Source: Thalassotalea sp. HSM 43 (lineage in GTDB: Bacteria; Pseudomonadota; Gammaproteobacteria; Enterobacterales; Alteromonadaceae). Taken from it: 64,000 nucleotides of DNA. The notes under the pieces were generated by a model. That model was not told where the DNA came from and did no database searches. It worked only from the letters and a program-made list of their open reading frames with translations. Positions within the stretch are counted from its first letter, which is position 1; each line of letters begins with the position of its first letter. Below are positions 10,421-41,652 of this stretch, piece after piece. The position numbers and the translations under genes are program-made. The stretch covers positions 992,001 to 1,056,000 of the forward strand of contig NZ_CP038493.1 of the NCBI RefSeq assembly GCF_004752005.1, given 5' to 3'.

Positions 10421-11497
10421 ATGCAGTACGCAGAAATTACCGGCTGGGGCAAATACACGCCACCAAGTGTTTTAACCAATGATGACCTCGCGACATTCAT
10501 GGATACCAATGACGAGTGGATTTCGACTCGTACCGGTATTAGAAACCGCCGTATATCACATATTAATACCGCTGAAATGTCGACTCTAGCCGCAAAACAA
10601 GCGTTAGCGCGAGCCGGCCTTCAAGCCGATGATATCGATATGATCGTCGTTGCCACATGTACCCCAGATTTGCTGGTACCAAATACAGCCTCTCGCGTGC
10701 AACAGCTATTAGGCACCAACCAGGCAGCTTGCTACGACGTCAGCGCCGCCTGCTCGGGTTTTATCTATGCCTTGCAATCAGCCACAGCACAAATTCGTAT
10801 GGGCATGGTCAAACGCGCTTTGGTGATCGGTGCAGAGCGCATGACCTGGTTTATCAATTGGGCGAAACGCGATACCGCGGTATTATTTGGTGACGGTTCC
10901 GGTGCGGTCGTGCTTGAAGCGACGGATCAGCCACTGGGCATGTTAGAGTCTAAAATTGGTTGTGACTCATCCGCTAGGGATATCCTAAAAGTCAGCAATT
11001 TCGGTACCGACATGGATCGCTATGTAAACCCACCGAGTGCATTGGATATTGACTTTGAAGGGCCAGAAATTTTCAAACGCGCCGTACGTGGTATGGGCCG
11101 AGCAACAGAAGCCGTGCTCAGCAACGCTAAATTAGCCGTCGATGATATCGACGTTTTAATTCCACACCAAGCCAATGCCCGCATCATTGAAACCTTGCAA
11201 CAAAAGCTGAAAGTTGATGATGATAAGGTGATGGTCAACATTAATAAGTACGGTAATACATCGGCGGCAACCATCCCTCTGGCACTGTGTGAAGCCGTTG
11301 AACAAGGCATGGTAAAACCGGGAGCTAATATTATGTCAGCTGCCTTTGGTGCCGGCTTAACCTGGGCAGCAACGTACATCAAATGGGGTGAACGTGTTAC
11401 CCCAGTAAACGATTATCAGCAAGAACAACAACACTGTGAGCAAACTGCGATGCAGTTAATTGCTGTGGCCAGAGAGCATTGTCTCAAAGGGCAGTAA
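10421..11497 (+). CDS. FabH-like 3-oxoacyl-ACP synthase III
   Basis: Thiolase-fold condensing enzyme of 358 residues with the FabH triad: Cys111 (in AACSGF), His249 (IPHQAN) and Asn279 (KYGNTSA). The protein is about 40 residues longer than canonical FabH because of an insertion around residues 185-215 and a C-terminal tail. It stands alone, away from a fab cluster, so it may be a second ketoacyl synthase III with a special primer or acyl chain. The ATG at 10421 has a CAGGA site at good spacing and is preferred to the TTG at 10415. Confidence 0.85.
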   Translation: MQYAEITGWGKYTPPSVLTNDDLATFMDTNDEWISTRTGIRNRRISHINTAEMSTLAAKQALARAGLQADDIDMIVVATCTPDLLVPNTASRVQQLLGTNQAACYDVSAACSGFIYALQSATAQIRMGMVKRALVIGAERMTWFINWAKRDTAVLFGDGSGAVVLEATDQPLGMLESKIGCDSSARDILKVSNFGTDMDRYVNPPSALDIDFEGPEIFKRAVRGMGRATEAVLSNAKLAVDDIDVLIPHQANARIIETLQQKLKVDDDKVMVNINKYGNTSAATIPLALCEAVEQGMVKPGANIMSAAFGAGLTWAATYIKWGERVTPVNDYQQEQQHCEQTAMQLIAVAREHCLKGQ

Positions 11498-11521: not shown

Positions 11522-11551
11522 AAAAACGCCTGCTTAGCAGGCGTTTTTTTA
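11522..11551. terminator. Terminator after the FabH-like gene
   Basis: Hairpin AAAAACGCCTGC/GCAGGCGTTTTT between converging genes, likely used from both sides. Confidence 0.85.
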
Positions 11552-11568
11552 TCCGTCGTGACCGGTGT

Positions 11569-12576
11569 TTATCTATCCGCATCCCAACTAAATAAGCGCG
11601 AGCTCAATAACAAGCAAATCAGGGTGAAGCTTAACAACCAGATAATCGAATAGCTGACATCATTAAGTGTTGCACCTTCGGTAATAATACGTCGGCCGGC
11701 ACCCACTAAATGCGTCAATGGTAAAATATCGGCAATGGTTTTAACCCAACCAGGGGCGCCTTCTAAAGAAAACCACACCCCGGATAATAGCATCATTGGC
11801 CAAGTCGCCATGTTTAACAAGCCGCCAACCAACTCCTCGGATTTACTGCGCGTTGCGATCAACAAGCCCATACTAATAAGGCTTACCGCGCCAATAACAG
11901 CGATTAAAAATAAGTCGAGGTAACTGCCAAGCATGATAAAATCGAAAATCCAGTTACAACCGATGTAAACCACCGCTGCCATAAACAACACGATAAATAA
12001 TCGCGACAACAGTTGCGCGCCGACAAACTCAAGCGCCGATAATGGCGTTGCCTTTAATCGCTTAAGTACGGAATTTTTTCGATAGCGAACAATGACATAA
12101 CCAACACCAAACAAACAAGAAAACATCATGTTCATGGCAAAAATCCCCGGCAACACCCAGTCGATATAACGAATTGGCTCACCACGGGTAACCTGGCGTT
12201 GATAATCTAAGCTGTCGGCAAGAAATATCTTTTCCACCATATAGCTCTTGGGTGAATTTTCGTTAACCCAATAGGCTTTACCCGCATCATCAACAATCAA
12301 GTCTATTTCGTGTTGATCGAGTTTGATCATCGCTTTATCAATGTGTTGATAATCGATAAAATCAATAAATCGGGTCTGTAAAAATGGGTGGCTCGATTCA
12401 GCTTTGGCCATGACACCAACCTTGTATACCGCGCGGCCATCACCAGAAAAAGCGATAGAAAAAATCACCAGTAACAACACCGGAAAAGCAATGTTCCAAG
12501 CCAACGACGACCGGTCGCGAAAAAACTCCAAATTACGGGCTTTGAAAACTGCCCACAGCCTTGACCACTTAATCAT
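11569..12576 (-). CDS. ABC-2 type transporter permease
   Basis: A 335-residue permease with one N-terminal membrane segment, a large external loop (about 45-165) and five C-terminal membrane segments (ending LLSFTLICLLLSSRLF). This is the usual layout of ABC-2/DrrB-like exporters. An upstream in-frame TTG was rejected because a GGAGG site lies 5 bases before the ATG at 12576. The gene overlaps the 3' end of its ATPase gene by 8 bases. The substrate cannot be told from sequence; drug, lipid or polysaccharide export are all possible. Confidence 0.85.
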   Translation of the reverse strand: MIKWSRLWAVFKARNLEFFRDRSSLAWNIAFPVLLLVIFSIAFSGDGRAVYKVGVMAKAESSHPFLQTRFIDFIDYQHIDKAMIKLDQHEIDLIVDDAGKAYWVNENSPKSYMVEKIFLADSLDYQRQVTRGEPIRYIDWVLPGIFAMNMMFSCLFGVGYVIVRYRKNSVLKRLKATPLSALEFVGAQLLSRLFIVLFMAAVVYIGCNWIFDFIMLGSYLDLFLIAVIGAVSLISMGLLIATRSKSEELVGGLLNMATWPMMLLSGVWFSLEGAPGWVKTIADILPLTHLVGAGRRIITEGATLNDVSYSIIWLLSFTLICLLLSSRLFSWDADR

Positions 12577-37594: not shown

Positions 37595-37676
37595 AACATA
37601 TCTCCATTAAGTTATAAGTGCAGTAAAACAATAAACCCTGACCTTTCTGCAAAGCCAAAGTGACAAGTCAGAGATT

Positions 37677-37694
37677 AATTATGACCAATTATGA
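37677..37694. promoter_or_regulatory. Candidate PdsR operator before the sortase target gene
   Basis: Two AATTATGA octamers with a two-base spacer give a 10-base period direct repeat, as used by OmpR-type regulators. Seventeen of these bases are identical to an element at 40866-40882 between pdsO and pdsR. It lies 83 bases upstream of the target gene start. Confidence 0.6.
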
Positions 37695-37718
37695 CATGCC
37701 AGTATTTATCGCGAGCAA

Positions 37719-38048
37719 TCAGGCAAAATCATCTTTGATAAATAGAAACGTCAAGGCCAATACAAATACCGGGATAAGCGACCAAAGATCCGCTTGGTTT
37801 AGATTTAACGCCGCCAGCGGTGTAAAACTAATCGACTGATTAATCTCAGTTAACGTTGTTGCTAAGCCTTGCATTGGTAAAAACAATAACAAAGACAACA
37901 AGGCTAAAACCAAACTTATGGTTAACACCTTTACTCGGTATTGCTGCATTTGCTGATAACGGTTTACCAGATTATCAACAAAATCATCCGCTTTGAGTGA
38001 CGGCATAGGTTTGCTTAGCAGTTGTTCTAATTCGGTTTTGTCGTTCAT
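37719..38048 (-). CDS. Two-helix membrane protein, probable anti-sigma factor
   Basis: A 109-residue protein with a short cytoplasmic N-terminus (residues 1-38) and two transmembrane segments (about 40-62 and 88-105). Its start overlaps the stop of the ECF sigma gene, the usual place for a membrane anti-sigma factor. It has no zinc-binding His/Cys motif. The role is inferred from position. Confidence 0.6.
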   Translation of the reverse strand: MNDKTELEQLLSKPMPSLKADDFVDNLVNRYQQMQQYRVKVLTISLVLALLSLLLFLPMQGLATTLTEINQSISFTPLAALNLNQADLWSLIPVFVLALTFLFIKDDFA

Positions 38049-38584
38049 CAGGCAACCCCTTTATAACAAGATGGTATATGTTTCTGCATCGCTTCTTTGC
38101 CTCTATTGCAATGCGATTTCACCGTGCCAAGTGGCATGTGTAACAGATCACTAATTTCAGAATGGCTATAACCCAAGGTTAAGTGCATGGTGATCACCGC
38201 TCGCTGTGCAACACTCAATGGTGCCATGAGGCGATAGATTAACTGTTCTTGAGCCAGTTGCTCGGTTAATTCGGGACTTTGCTCATCAAGCATGGTTTGC
38301 TCATCGATGGCCTGTGCCTCACCGCGTGCTTTAAGCATCTGCAAAAATTGACGATAAGCGATGCGATATAACCAAGACTTAAATGCTTTGACGTTTTGTA
38401 GCTTGCCCAATTGTTGATAGGCAATCAACAAACTCTCTTGTGCGATGTCATCAGCCAAAGCGCAATCACCAGCGGTTAATCGCCGACAATAACCACGCAA
38501 GTCCGACTGACATGTTGTGACGATGCGGTCAAATGTCTGTCGGTTTTGCGTGCTTTGAAAGTGAGCGATTAAACGTTTAAGCAT
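38048..38584 (-). CDS. ECF RNA polymerase sigma factor
   Basis: A 178-residue sigma-70 family protein with region 2 (DDIAQESLLIAYQQLGKLQNVKAFKSWLYRIAYRQFLQ) and region 4 (LTLGYSHSEISDLLHMPLGTVKSHCNRG). ATG has AAGG 5 bases upstream. It overlaps the downstream membrane protein and follows the DUF6249 gene by 15 bases. Its site within the sortase cluster suggests control of envelope genes, but no target can be named. Confidence 0.88.
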   Translation of the reverse strand: MLKRLIAHFQSTQNRQTFDRIVTTCQSDLRGYCRRLTAGDCALADDIAQESLLIAYQQLGKLQNVKAFKSWLYRIAYRQFLQMLKARGEAQAIDEQTMLDEQSPELTEQLAQEQLIYRLMAPLSVAQRAVITMHLTLGYSHSEISDLLHMPLGTVKSHCNRGKEAMQKHIPSCYKGVA

Positions 38585-38599
38585 ATATGCCTTATTGTA

Positions 38600-38947
38600 T
38601 CAGCTTTTATCGGCGAATCGATACACCAACAAATAGCCAATGCCTATGGTCAACGGAAACATGGCAATACCGGCCATATCCGCATCTGCGGTGCTAATCC
38701 ATGCATACAAGGCAATACCTACGGCTAATGAGACTAACAGGATGCCACGTTTAAAATCCGCTTTCGGATTACGCTGCACGTGCAGTATTTTTTCGATACT
38801 TTCTGGGCTTAATGCTTGACCATTATCCAGAGCTTTTTGAATGGTTTGCTGCAGAGCCATTTTATTTTTATAAGCATAAAATAAAAACAACCAAGCAACG
38901 ACACCTATGGTCACAAATAATACGATAGGGACTAGTTCTTCCATCAT
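38600..38947 (-). CDS. DUF6249-like membrane protein
   Basis: A 115-residue protein with one N-terminal and two C-terminal membrane segments. A cytoplasmic part between (ALQQTIQKALDNGQALSPESIEKIL) matches the DUF6249 pattern of proteins often encoded next to ECF sigma factors. It is the first gene of the three-gene sigma unit. The next ATG codon is an alternative start. Confidence 0.72.
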   Translation of the reverse strand: MMEELVPIVLFVTIGVVAWLFLFYAYKNKMALQQTIQKALDNGQALSPESIEKILHVQRNPKADFKRGILLVSLAVGIALYAWISTADADMAGIAMFPLTIGIGYLLVYRFADKS

Positions 38948-39002
38948 TACATTCCTCTTTTTCTGTAGTGTTATCGTTAAGAGGGATTAAATAATGAAAA
39001 TG

Positions 39003-39035
39003 GATGCAGTAAATGAAAATATTTTTACTGCACCC
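39003..39035 (-). terminator. Hairpin after the 39089-39544 gene
   Basis: Arms TGCAGTAAA and TTTACTGCA with an A/T-rich loop, about 55 bases beyond that gene's stop on the minus strand. It could also overlap the sigma-unit promoter. Confidence 0.5.
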
Positions 39036-39088
39036 ATTGCTACGTTACAACATTGACGTGTGATAGATACCGCTAACAAGCAGTAATA

Positions 39089-39544
39089 TTATACTTCACA
39101 CTCTTTTTCTTGAGTCTTCCAAACAACCGGATCCCAATATTCGCCAGTCTTTAATTTTGACTTATGCTTACGATTATATTTAGCACCTAAGTAGTATCGC
39201 ATGTTGGCTTCAACATCGATTTCGATCACTTTATAGTTAAGCATTTCACCGCGTCGACGAGTAAAGTAGCTGTCGGTAATATTTTCCATTACTTTGATTT
39301 TATGCTTACCTGGCGACAAAACAAACGAATGGCTATTGCTGCCTACCGGCACGCCATCAATGGTATTGATAACCACATGATACAGTCGCTTTGTTTCTGG
39401 CGGGCGCTTGTAAACGCTAACGATGCCACAAGCCGTTGGGTCGAGTGTTTCAGCACTTTCTTGCTCATCAAAAGCTTGGGTGCTAAAAGCCAACATTGGT
39501 GCCATAGCCATGGCGATAAATGAGAGTTTTTTACTGGTTTTCAT
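39089..39544 (-). CDS. Exported protein of unknown function
   Basis: A 150-residue protein with a Sec signal peptide (MKTSKKLSFIAMAMAPMLAF) and a beta-rich body with GVPVGSNSHSFVLSPGKHKIKV. That pattern resembles PEGA/DUF2846-type small sandwiches. Two cysteines near each end (TACGIV, KECEV) may form a disulfide. ATG 39544 has AAGGAAG 5 bases upstream and beats the longer frame starting at 39574. It lies inside the sortase cluster, so a link to it is possible. Confidence 0.62.
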   Translation of the reverse strand: MKTSKKLSFIAMAMAPMLAFSTQAFDEQESAETLDPTACGIVSVYKRPPETKRLYHVVINTIDGVPVGSNSHSFVLSPGKHKIKVMENITDSYFTRRRGEMLNYKVIEIDVEANMRYYLGAKYNRKHKSKLKTGEYWDPVVWKTQEKECEV

Positions 39545-39955
39545 ATTTTCTTCCTTAAATGTCACTAAAGCCAAAATGCGATTAGAGCCAATGACTTAAC
39601 TAATTGCTAACGACTTATAGATAGCCTGCAATTGCCTGACAAACAACCCGCTAACTTTGTCCAAATGTAAGTAAATTTGTCGCCGATTATATAATCGCCT
39701 AACAAACCACTGGAACAAGCGGGGTCATTTTCCTTAAAACGCCTATTTCTCATGCTCTGCAGAGCAAAAACACAAATAAATCAAGACGTAACAAACTGTG
39801 CACTGTGACACACTTTGTAACCTAACTATAGGAGATAAAATCACCATTACAAACGATAAATCATGTTTTGCAATGAAAAAAAGACGATAACTAGAGGCCG
39901 ATATCGTCTTTGTTTTGGTGGGAGATTTAGGACTAAAAGTCCTTAATAAACAGGG
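39545..39955. other. Intergenic region between pdsO and the 39089 gene
   Basis: These 411 bases hold the promoter of the small exported protein and, at 39875-39912, the pdsO terminator. I find no other open frame with a ribosome site. Confidence 0.5.
39875..39912 (-). terminator. Terminator after pdsO
   Basis: Hairpin AAAGACGATA/TATCGTCTTT followed by a T tract on the minus strand. Confidence 0.85.
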
Positions 39956-40729
39956 TTATAAATTTGCTTGTTTGGCCACCTCCTCACTGTCGACTTTTAA
40001 TTTTAAAACAACGCGACGGTCAAAGTAATTTACCTCTTGTTGTTGCTCTGGTTGCAATGGCAAGGATTCACCAAATGCGGTGGCATAAATACGATCTTCA
40101 CCGACCCCTTGTGCGACTAACAGCTGTTTTACTTTGTCGATGCGACGCTGCGCCAATTTTAGGTTCAAGGTTTCATCGCCTTGACGGTCGGTGTAACCTT
40201 CAAGGTCGATATATAAGTGTGGCGAGCGCTTTAACACGGTTGCTAGGGCGATAACTTGCTGTTGATAATGGGCTTCAATGTCACTTGAGCCGGTTCGAAA
40301 CATTAGGCTAACGAGAATATTTTCCACTTGCGCTTTTTCGCTGTTTTCATAGGCCTTAGCGATATTCATCATCTCATTTTGATACTGCAACTCGAGATTT
40401 TTTAGCTCACTGCTTTGCTTATGCGCTAAATTTTTACGTTGCATTTGTTCGCTGGCCAGTTGCTGCTCCAAACTGTCAATTTCCCGTTCTGATACCAAAT
40501 GCTTGGCAAAGTAATCACCGGCAAAGGCCGTGATAAAAGCGCCTGGTGGACCACCAAAGATGCCACCAATCACCGCACCAATGCTGATACCCCACTTTTC
40601 TTCGTTTGGCATTTCGTCGATATGCTCGACCAATGTTTTCGCTTGCGGCTGCTCGTCAGCTTGGGCAATGTTAATAAATGAACTGCTTAATATCGTCGCG
40701 ATAGCTAGTGTAGTCATGGTCTTTTTCAT
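39956..40729 (-). CDS. pdsO: Sortase-associated OmpA-like protein PdsO
   Basis: A 257-residue envelope protein with a signal peptide (cleavage after about QADE). A glycine-rich hydrophobic stretch (GAVIGGIFGGPPGAFITAF) and a coiled-coil (about 80-130) follow. The C-terminal OmpA domain (about 140-250) has LEGYTDRQGDETLNLKLAQRRIDKV, which should bind peptidoglycan. This matches TIGR03789. It is divergent from pdsR, with a shared operator-like element between. Confidence 0.9.
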   Translation of the reverse strand: MKKTMTTLAIATILSSSFINIAQADEQPQAKTLVEHIDEMPNEEKWGISIGAVIGGIFGGPPGAFITAFAGDYFAKHLVSEREIDSLEQQLASEQMQRKNLAHKQSSELKNLELQYQNEMMNIAKAYENSEKAQVENILVSLMFRTGSSDIEAHYQQQVIALATVLKRSPHLYIDLEGYTDRQGDETLNLKLAQRRIDKVKQLLVAQGVGEDRIYATAFGESLPLQPEQQQEVNYFDRRVVLKLKVDSEEVAKQANL

Positions 40730-40864
40730 AATGATTCCTCGTCAATTAAAATAACTGTGCAGATCAACAGTGACTTGCGTCGAAGCGTTGCTGTCCTGCC
40801 GATGAATTCATTAAACAAAATAAAATTGACTTTTTTTTCGTCAAAAACTGATACTTGTGAAATA

Positions 40865-40882
40865 GATTATGACCAATTATGA
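40865..40882. promoter_or_regulatory. Candidate PdsR operator between pdsO and pdsR
   Basis: The direct repeat TTATGA-N4-TTATGA (10-base period) shares 17 bases, ATTATGACCAATTATGA, with the element before the sortase target gene. It is 78 bases before pdsR and 136 before pdsO. Confidence 0.6.
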
Positions 40883-40959
40883 AAATTGCTTTGTTTCGCT
40901 AGAATCAGATATGCAATCGGGTATAGTGGCTTTAATAACAAAATCAAAACGAGAACATA

Positions 40960-41652
40960 ATGAGTAAACGCATTGCCATAGTTGAGGATGATGAAGCCAT
41001 TCGAGAGAATTACGCGCAAGCTCTGCGTCAACAGGGCTTTGTTGTACAAACCTATAGGAATAAGAGTACGGCTTTGTCGGCGTTTGAACTAAGCTTGCCA
41101 CATCTGGCCATTCTTGATGTCGGCCTCGAAGAAGAATTTGATGGCGGCTTTGATATATGTCGTTATTTGCGAGAAAAGTCGGCCACGTTACCCATTATAT
41201 TTTTAACCGCACGCGATAGCGATATCGATCAAATCAGTGGCCTGCGTCTTGGTGCTAATGACTACGTCAGCAAAACCATGAGTTTTGATAACCTTAGCGC
41301 TCGTATTCATGCCACTCTTAATTACTTAAAAATCATTGAAACCCCGGTTGTTGAAAACATTTTGCAGCGACAGGCGTTAACCATTAATAAGGATCGATTA
41401 TCGATCAGTTGGCACAATGACTTGGTAAACTTCACCATTACCGAGTTTTGGATGATTCACTCTTTGGCGTTAAATCCAGGTCACGTTAAAAGTAAGGATC
41501 AATTAATGCAGGATGCAAATATTGTCGTTGATGACAACACCGTCACCGCCCATATAAAACGCATTCGCAAAAAGTTCATGCAGGTCGATACCAATTTCAA
41601 CTGCATTGATACCGTATATGGCATGGGTTATCGTTGGCTAGAAGCTAAATAG
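40960..41652 (+). CDS. pdsR: Dedicated sortase system response regulator PdsR
   Basis: A 230-residue OmpR-family regulator. The receiver has the acidic pair VEDDEAI, the phospho-Asp in AILDVGLEEE and the LTARDSDIDQISGL segment. The C-terminal winged helix ends HIKRIRKKF...VYGMGYRWLEAK. It matches TIGR03787 and pairs with the histidine kinase 9 bases downstream. Confidence 0.92.
   Translation: MSKRIAIVEDDEAIRENYAQALRQQGFVVQTYRNKSTALSAFELSLPHLAILDVGLEEEFDGGFDICRYLREKSATLPIIFLTARDSDIDQISGLRLGANDYVSKTMSFDNLSARIHATLNYLKIIETPVVENILQRQALTINKDRLSISWHNDLVNFTITEFWMIHSLALNPGHVKSKDQLMQDANIVVDDNTVTAHIKRIRKKFMQVDTNFNCIDTVYGMGYRWLEAK

Follow-up and report, generated by a model that had tools for sequence, protein, structure and literature searches.

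Most of what is known about the dedicated sortase system of Gram-negative bacteria comes from family models; the proteobacterial sortase has been described as dedicated, with its LPXTG target encoded in an adjacent gene (PMC3237569). In the stretch of 64,000 nucleotides of Thalassotalea sp. HSM 43 analyzed here (the window), all five curated families of this system are represented. The minus strand encodes the class GN sortase (TIGR03784; 34510-35328), the sortase target protein, which includes VIT and von Willebrand A domains (TIGR03788; 35342-37594), and the OmpA-like protein PdsO (TIGR03789; 39956-40729); the sortase gene follows the target gene after 13 bp and both are predicted to form a single transcription unit. 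The plus strand carries pdsR (TIGR03787, 343.9 bits against a cut-off of 335.7; 40960-41652), which encodes a response regulator of the OmpR/PhoB family and the predicted DNA-binding protein of the system, followed by pdsS (TIGR03785; 41662-43839), the gene for the cognate histidine kinase. Between pdsO and the target gene (37719-39574) there are four genes, shared by several congeners, that encode an ECF sigma factor with a possible anti-sigma partner (a membrane protein of 109 aa), a DUF6249 protein and a secreted protein of 151 aa. A sequence-only reading of this region pointed out that a 17-base element, ATTATGACCAATTATGA, is present twice in the sortase cluster, proposed it as a candidate operator of PdsR, and knew of no operator described for this regulator; the open-licence literature on PdsR, the dedicated sortase, Shewanella SO2193-2195 and the Shewanella regulon reconstruction likewise gave no PdsR operator or regulon. 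The locus raises the question of whether this repeat is a control element and, if so, which protein binds it and which genes depend on it.

The repeat is part of a larger module

Exact copies of the 17-mer lie at 37678-37694 and 40866-40882, both on the plus strand; the sites are as had been described, except that the start given for the first, 37677, was one base early. The period of 10 bp in the TTATGA pair was borne out, as was the location of the copies in control regions, one 84 bp upstream of the target gene start and the other between the divergent pdsO and pdsR. The pattern TTATGA-N4-TTATGA is found in only two places in the whole genome (4,014,670 bases), and the reversed pattern used as a control has one match. 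Allowing up to three mismatches, the 17-mer has two matches in the window, both exact, against 0.35 expected; at least two such matches appeared in 5 of 100 shuffles, therefore the repeat count alone is weak and the case rests on conservation. In this respect, a recent duplication (shared ancestry) or a random repeat with no regulatory role could be invoked, since two identical 17-mers in AT-rich intergenic DNA are by themselves only mildly improbable; nevertheless, we give this explanation almost no weight, because the spacing described below is conserved over more than 100 loci and the module occurs independently before unlinked target genes. A repeat search of the intergenic regions revealed no further repeats in them.

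The alignment of the upstream regions of congeners on the 17-mer revealed four TGA cores per operator, located at 0, +22, +43 and +53 (spacings of 22, 21 and 10), and a −10 box (ATTAAA or ATTTAA on the plus strand) placed 17 bp before the first core and reading into pdsO or the target gene. Each 17-mer is the distal half of this larger module, with two further TGA cores and the −10 box beyond it; that is, the outer, gene-distal part of a control sequence of roughly 60 bases that precedes the same surface-protein genes in many Gram-negative bacteria. In the window, the full operator between pdsO and pdsR (40827-40882, plus strand) has its cores at 40827, 40849, 40870 and 40880, the last two within the 17-mer. 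The pdsO −10 box is located at 40810-40816 on the minus strand (ATTAAAC on the plus strand, GTTTAAT on the minus strand), 17 bp from the first core and 60 bp from the third, and the pdsR −10 box, TATAGT, at 40922-40927 on the plus strand, 42 bp from the last core. The full operator before the target gene (37639-37694, plus strand) contains the other 17-mer and has its cores at 37639, 37661, 37682 and 37692, again with spacings of 22, 21 and 10; the −10 box of the target-sortase unit (37622-37628, minus strand; AGTAAAA on the plus strand, TTTTACT on the minus strand) keeps the same distance to the operator as that of pdsO. None of the four genes at 37719-39574 has a four-core operator of its own. 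The module consists of direct repeats with a period of 10-11 bp, as the operators of the OmpR/PhoB family do, and it is very probably the binding place of the neighbouring regulator PdsR; the initial proposal is supported in this regard and was too narrow in size, given that the 17 bp with one dimer become about 56 bp with three dimer positions.

Conservation within the genus

PdsR was found in 14 of the 16 other members of this Thalassotalea-type genus, with 72-83% identity, and the operator module is kept in all 14, while the four-core pattern has no match in the two congeners that lack PdsR. Over 17 genomes this pattern has 25 matches, 23 of which are located at pds loci, and the reversed control has one; a congener (G396) escapes the pattern because its first core is TGC. 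The search upstream of the target and pdsO genes of other genomes, put forward in the sequence-only reading as a check, was thus positive in every PdsR-bearing congener, far beyond chance, and in a wider search also at about 100 further loci and at unlinked target genes; negative controls lack the module. When one mismatch was allowed, the matches of a 14-base dimer pattern occurred genome-wide at about the control rate, and no credible extra regulon genes emerged. Within the genus, pdsO is often separated from the target gene by other genes, and the target gene then has its own full copy of the operator; a single run of genes comprising pdsO, target and sortase, with one operator, is seen in many genomes of the order. 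The target copies of the operator are less well conserved than the pdsO copies.

Spacing between the module and the −10 boxes

The spacing was evaluated in 121 loci anchored on the last two cores alone, using 200 dinucleotide shuffles as the null, whose largest peak was 4. With this anchoring the other cores fall at −21 and −43, and in 93 of the 121 loci the pdsO −10 box precedes the third core by exactly 60 bp. The pdsR −10 box (TATAGT and relatives) is placed at +42 from the last core in 59 loci and at +52 or +53 in 31 (for both promoters the null maximum was 4). In the 59 loci left out of consensus finding, the pdsO −10 box is at the same place in 45, and that of pdsR is 42 bp away in 20 and 52 or 53 bp away in 21. 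The two preferred pdsR distances differ by one helical turn, which argues for a requirement that a protein on the operator be turned towards the polymerase of the pdsR promoter. TTGACA matches indicative of a −35 element were not above background in the pdsO or pdsR promoter, which favours activation. The operator occupies the place of the −35 element at a fixed distance from the −10 box, which is the layout of class II (PhoB-type) promoters, and from this we infer that the pdsO and target-sortase promoters are probably activated instead of repressed. The PHO box likewise substitutes for the −35 element.

Repression by OmpR-family regulators is known, and the module could be a PdsR operator from which PdsR represses pdsO, target and sortase genes until it is released when PdsS is inactive. 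The innermost half-site indeed falls between the −10 box and the position of a −35 element, so that a protein bound there could block the polymerase; however, there is no −35 element to occlude, and a fixed distance from the −10 box to the operator is characteristic of activator-dependent promoters, so we consider repression improbable.

A variant module in other proteobacteria

TIGR03787 is above its cut-off in 130 of the 395 genomes of the order. Beyond the genus, we sampled 66 of the TIGR03787 loci of the order and 80 loci from named Gamma- and Betaproteobacteria. In most of them, and across both classes, the region upstream of pdsR shows a variant module formed by TATTAAAC, TGGCA, GGG, AAAAATGGCAAT and TCAATTGTGGCAACAATATGGCAATTG. 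This family form has TGGC as its core and, in most cases, a last spacing of 11; the TGAC form with 10 bp is peculiar to the Thalassotalea-type genus. The last period is 10 in 15 of 15 genus members (window included) and 11 in 97 of the 105 loci whose PdsR has Ser197. The GGG placed 11 bp beyond the first core points to a second half-site there, hence the module would accommodate three tandem dimers.

A weight matrix trained on 34 loci was applied to 2.45 Mb, and every match of at least 15 bits lies upstream of pdsR, with at most one per locus; whole-genome scans were done with patterns instead of the matrix. The site is present in 113 of 125 loci with a pds gene nearby, the other 12 being under the site threshold, and in 8 of 32 loci in which no pds gene was recognised. 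Exact matches of the canonical pattern over 89 genomes of the order are mainly at pds loci, and those outside the pds system occur at the control rate; across genomes, the site is found upstream of pdsO, target or sortase genes, as expected for a PdsR regulon.

This distribution also bears on the identity of the bound protein, because a different regulator or a sigma factor could recognize the module, for instance the ECF sigma factor encoded at 38048-38584. Its gene lies between pdsO and the target gene in the window and in several congeners, and the −10 boxes belong to the conserved block. Against this, the module persists in families in whose loci no ECF gene of this kind was detected and in loci that have only pdsR and pdsO in common, it is absent from distant PdsR-like clades without pds genes, and the core base follows residue 197 of PdsR (see below). 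A binder other than PdsR is accordingly very unlikely.

Seven loci (L085, L091, L094, L098, L099, L102 and L111) encode PdsR-like proteins with Thr197 that are above the TIGR03787 cut-off and whose surroundings contain neither pds genes nor the operator; the TIGR03787 model probably takes in a separate regulator group.

Unlinked target genes

Target genes located away from pdsR provide an independent test. We examined 34 genomes, mostly without target and sortase genes in the pdsR locus, and 12 of them have these genes elsewhere. The module was found upstream of the unlinked target gene in 10 of the 12 genomes (p ≤ 0.005, shuffle), mostly no more than 33 bp from the farthest in-frame ATG; in the other two a degenerate copy is visible but does not reach significance (p 0.065 and 0.159). 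Four VIT-VWA paralogues that score under the target family cut-off have no module upstream, including the second VIT-VWA protein of this genome (G000:C1:816013-817764, L261). The operator therefore follows the target gene and not the pdsR locus.

Two Thalassotalea genomes without target and sortase (L059 and L060) have a gene that resembles the C-terminal half of the sortase (10658-11359 and 11524-12258, respectively, in coordinates oriented with pdsR on the plus strand). Its product shows 31% and 29% identity to the sortase of the window and lacks the catalytic cysteine (LILHSPY versus LLITCYPF), and a PdsR-like operator is located upstream of it.

Residue 197 of PdsR and the last core

PdsR has a winged-helix domain, as indicated by a PF00486 match and by the alignment to solved OmpR/PhoB members, and residues 193-205 lie in its recognition helix (N193-T194-V195-T196-A197-H198 in the window). 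In this alignment residue 197 corresponds to Val197 of PhoB, which touches thymines in both half-sites (PMC3973317). Ala occupies position 197 in all 15 genus members, whose last core is invariably TGA. A further 105 proteins have Ser there, and in 104 of these cases G is the third base of the last core; in the third core, TGA is tolerated alongside Ser197 in a few loci. In a tree of 157 PdsR proteins, Ala197 arose once, on a branch that is long and fully supported; it represents therefore a single event, and further PdsR residues changed together with it. The correlation is for this reason only suggestive, and what it suggests is that PdsR is the binder.

The change from TGG to TGA introduces a thymine opposite the altered base, and the PHO-box half-site CTGTCAT corresponds to ATGACAG on the complementary strand (PMC4415409); a hydrophobic residue 197 together with TGAC is consistent with PhoB. 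We tentatively propose, at slightly less than even chances, that a change of Ser197 to Ala in the ancestor of the genus accompanied a simultaneous conversion of all PdsR operators, in the two transcription units alike, from TGGC to TGAC cores, which would have produced a natural pair of mutually orthogonal PdsR-operator systems; the hydrophobic residue would touch the additional thymine methyl in the way that Val197 of PhoB touches thymines. The correlation offers a clean test of evolutionary change in OmpR-family specificity.

Proposed mechanism and comparison with known systems

Taken as a whole, we consider it highly likely, from comparison of sequences, that three tandem PdsR dimers activate pdsO and the target-sortase unit, and probably also pdsRS. 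PdsS would pass a signal to PdsR, and the regulator, presumably in its phosphorylated form, would occupy the direct repeats with at most three dimers in head-to-tail orientation, spaced about 21-22 bp, with TGAC as the putative binding core in the Thalassotalea-type genus and TGGC elsewhere. Since the dimer nearest to the gene would overlap the missing −35 region, PdsR would recruit RNA polymerase at pdsO and target-sortase in a PhoB-like manner. The other face of the operator, in fixed helical phase with the pdsR −10 box, would probably tune pdsRS (autoregulation).

A direct-repeat operator of an OmpR-family regulator is of a well-known kind; what is distinctive here is the bidirectional, helically phased, three-dimer layout. 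The PHO box of PhoB in Escherichia coli also consists of direct repeats bound head-to-tail; the complement of its half-site is close to the TGAC core, its period of 11 bp is that of the PdsR family form, and the positions of T194, H198 and R201 are equivalent (PMC4415409, PMC3973317). In contrast, PdsR belongs to a different regulator family with a different regulon, and its module has three dimer positions in a fixed bidirectional arrangement, with period 10 and TGAC in the genus and TGGC elsewhere. The possibility that the module is itself a PHO box was discarded, since PdsR is a TIGR03787 equivalog, the PhoB models are far below their cut-offs and the genes are those of the pds system, not of phosphate. 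PhoP of Mycobacterium tuberculosis recognizes 7-bp direct-repeat motifs with a 4-bp spacer and strict spacing, and its stacking to trimers and tetramers has been shown experimentally (PMC4832192); however, its motif is TCACAGC and the regulons are unrelated.

A defined operator delimits the predicted regulon from sequence alone, i.e. pdsO, target-sortase, pdsRS and apparently nothing else; it also allows the assignment of unlinked targets and the design of reporter promoters for finding the inducing signal. In contrast with the description of a dedicated sortase system, many genomes have pdsR, pdsS, pdsO and the operator with no sortase or target gene nearby. In 57 of the 157 loci (e.g. L069, L070 and L106), pdsO, pdsR and the operator are present with no target or sortase gene within about 8-10 kb, and in several of these genomes such genes are found nowhere; it may be that the regulator PdsR and PdsO predate, or reach beyond, the sortase system that names them.
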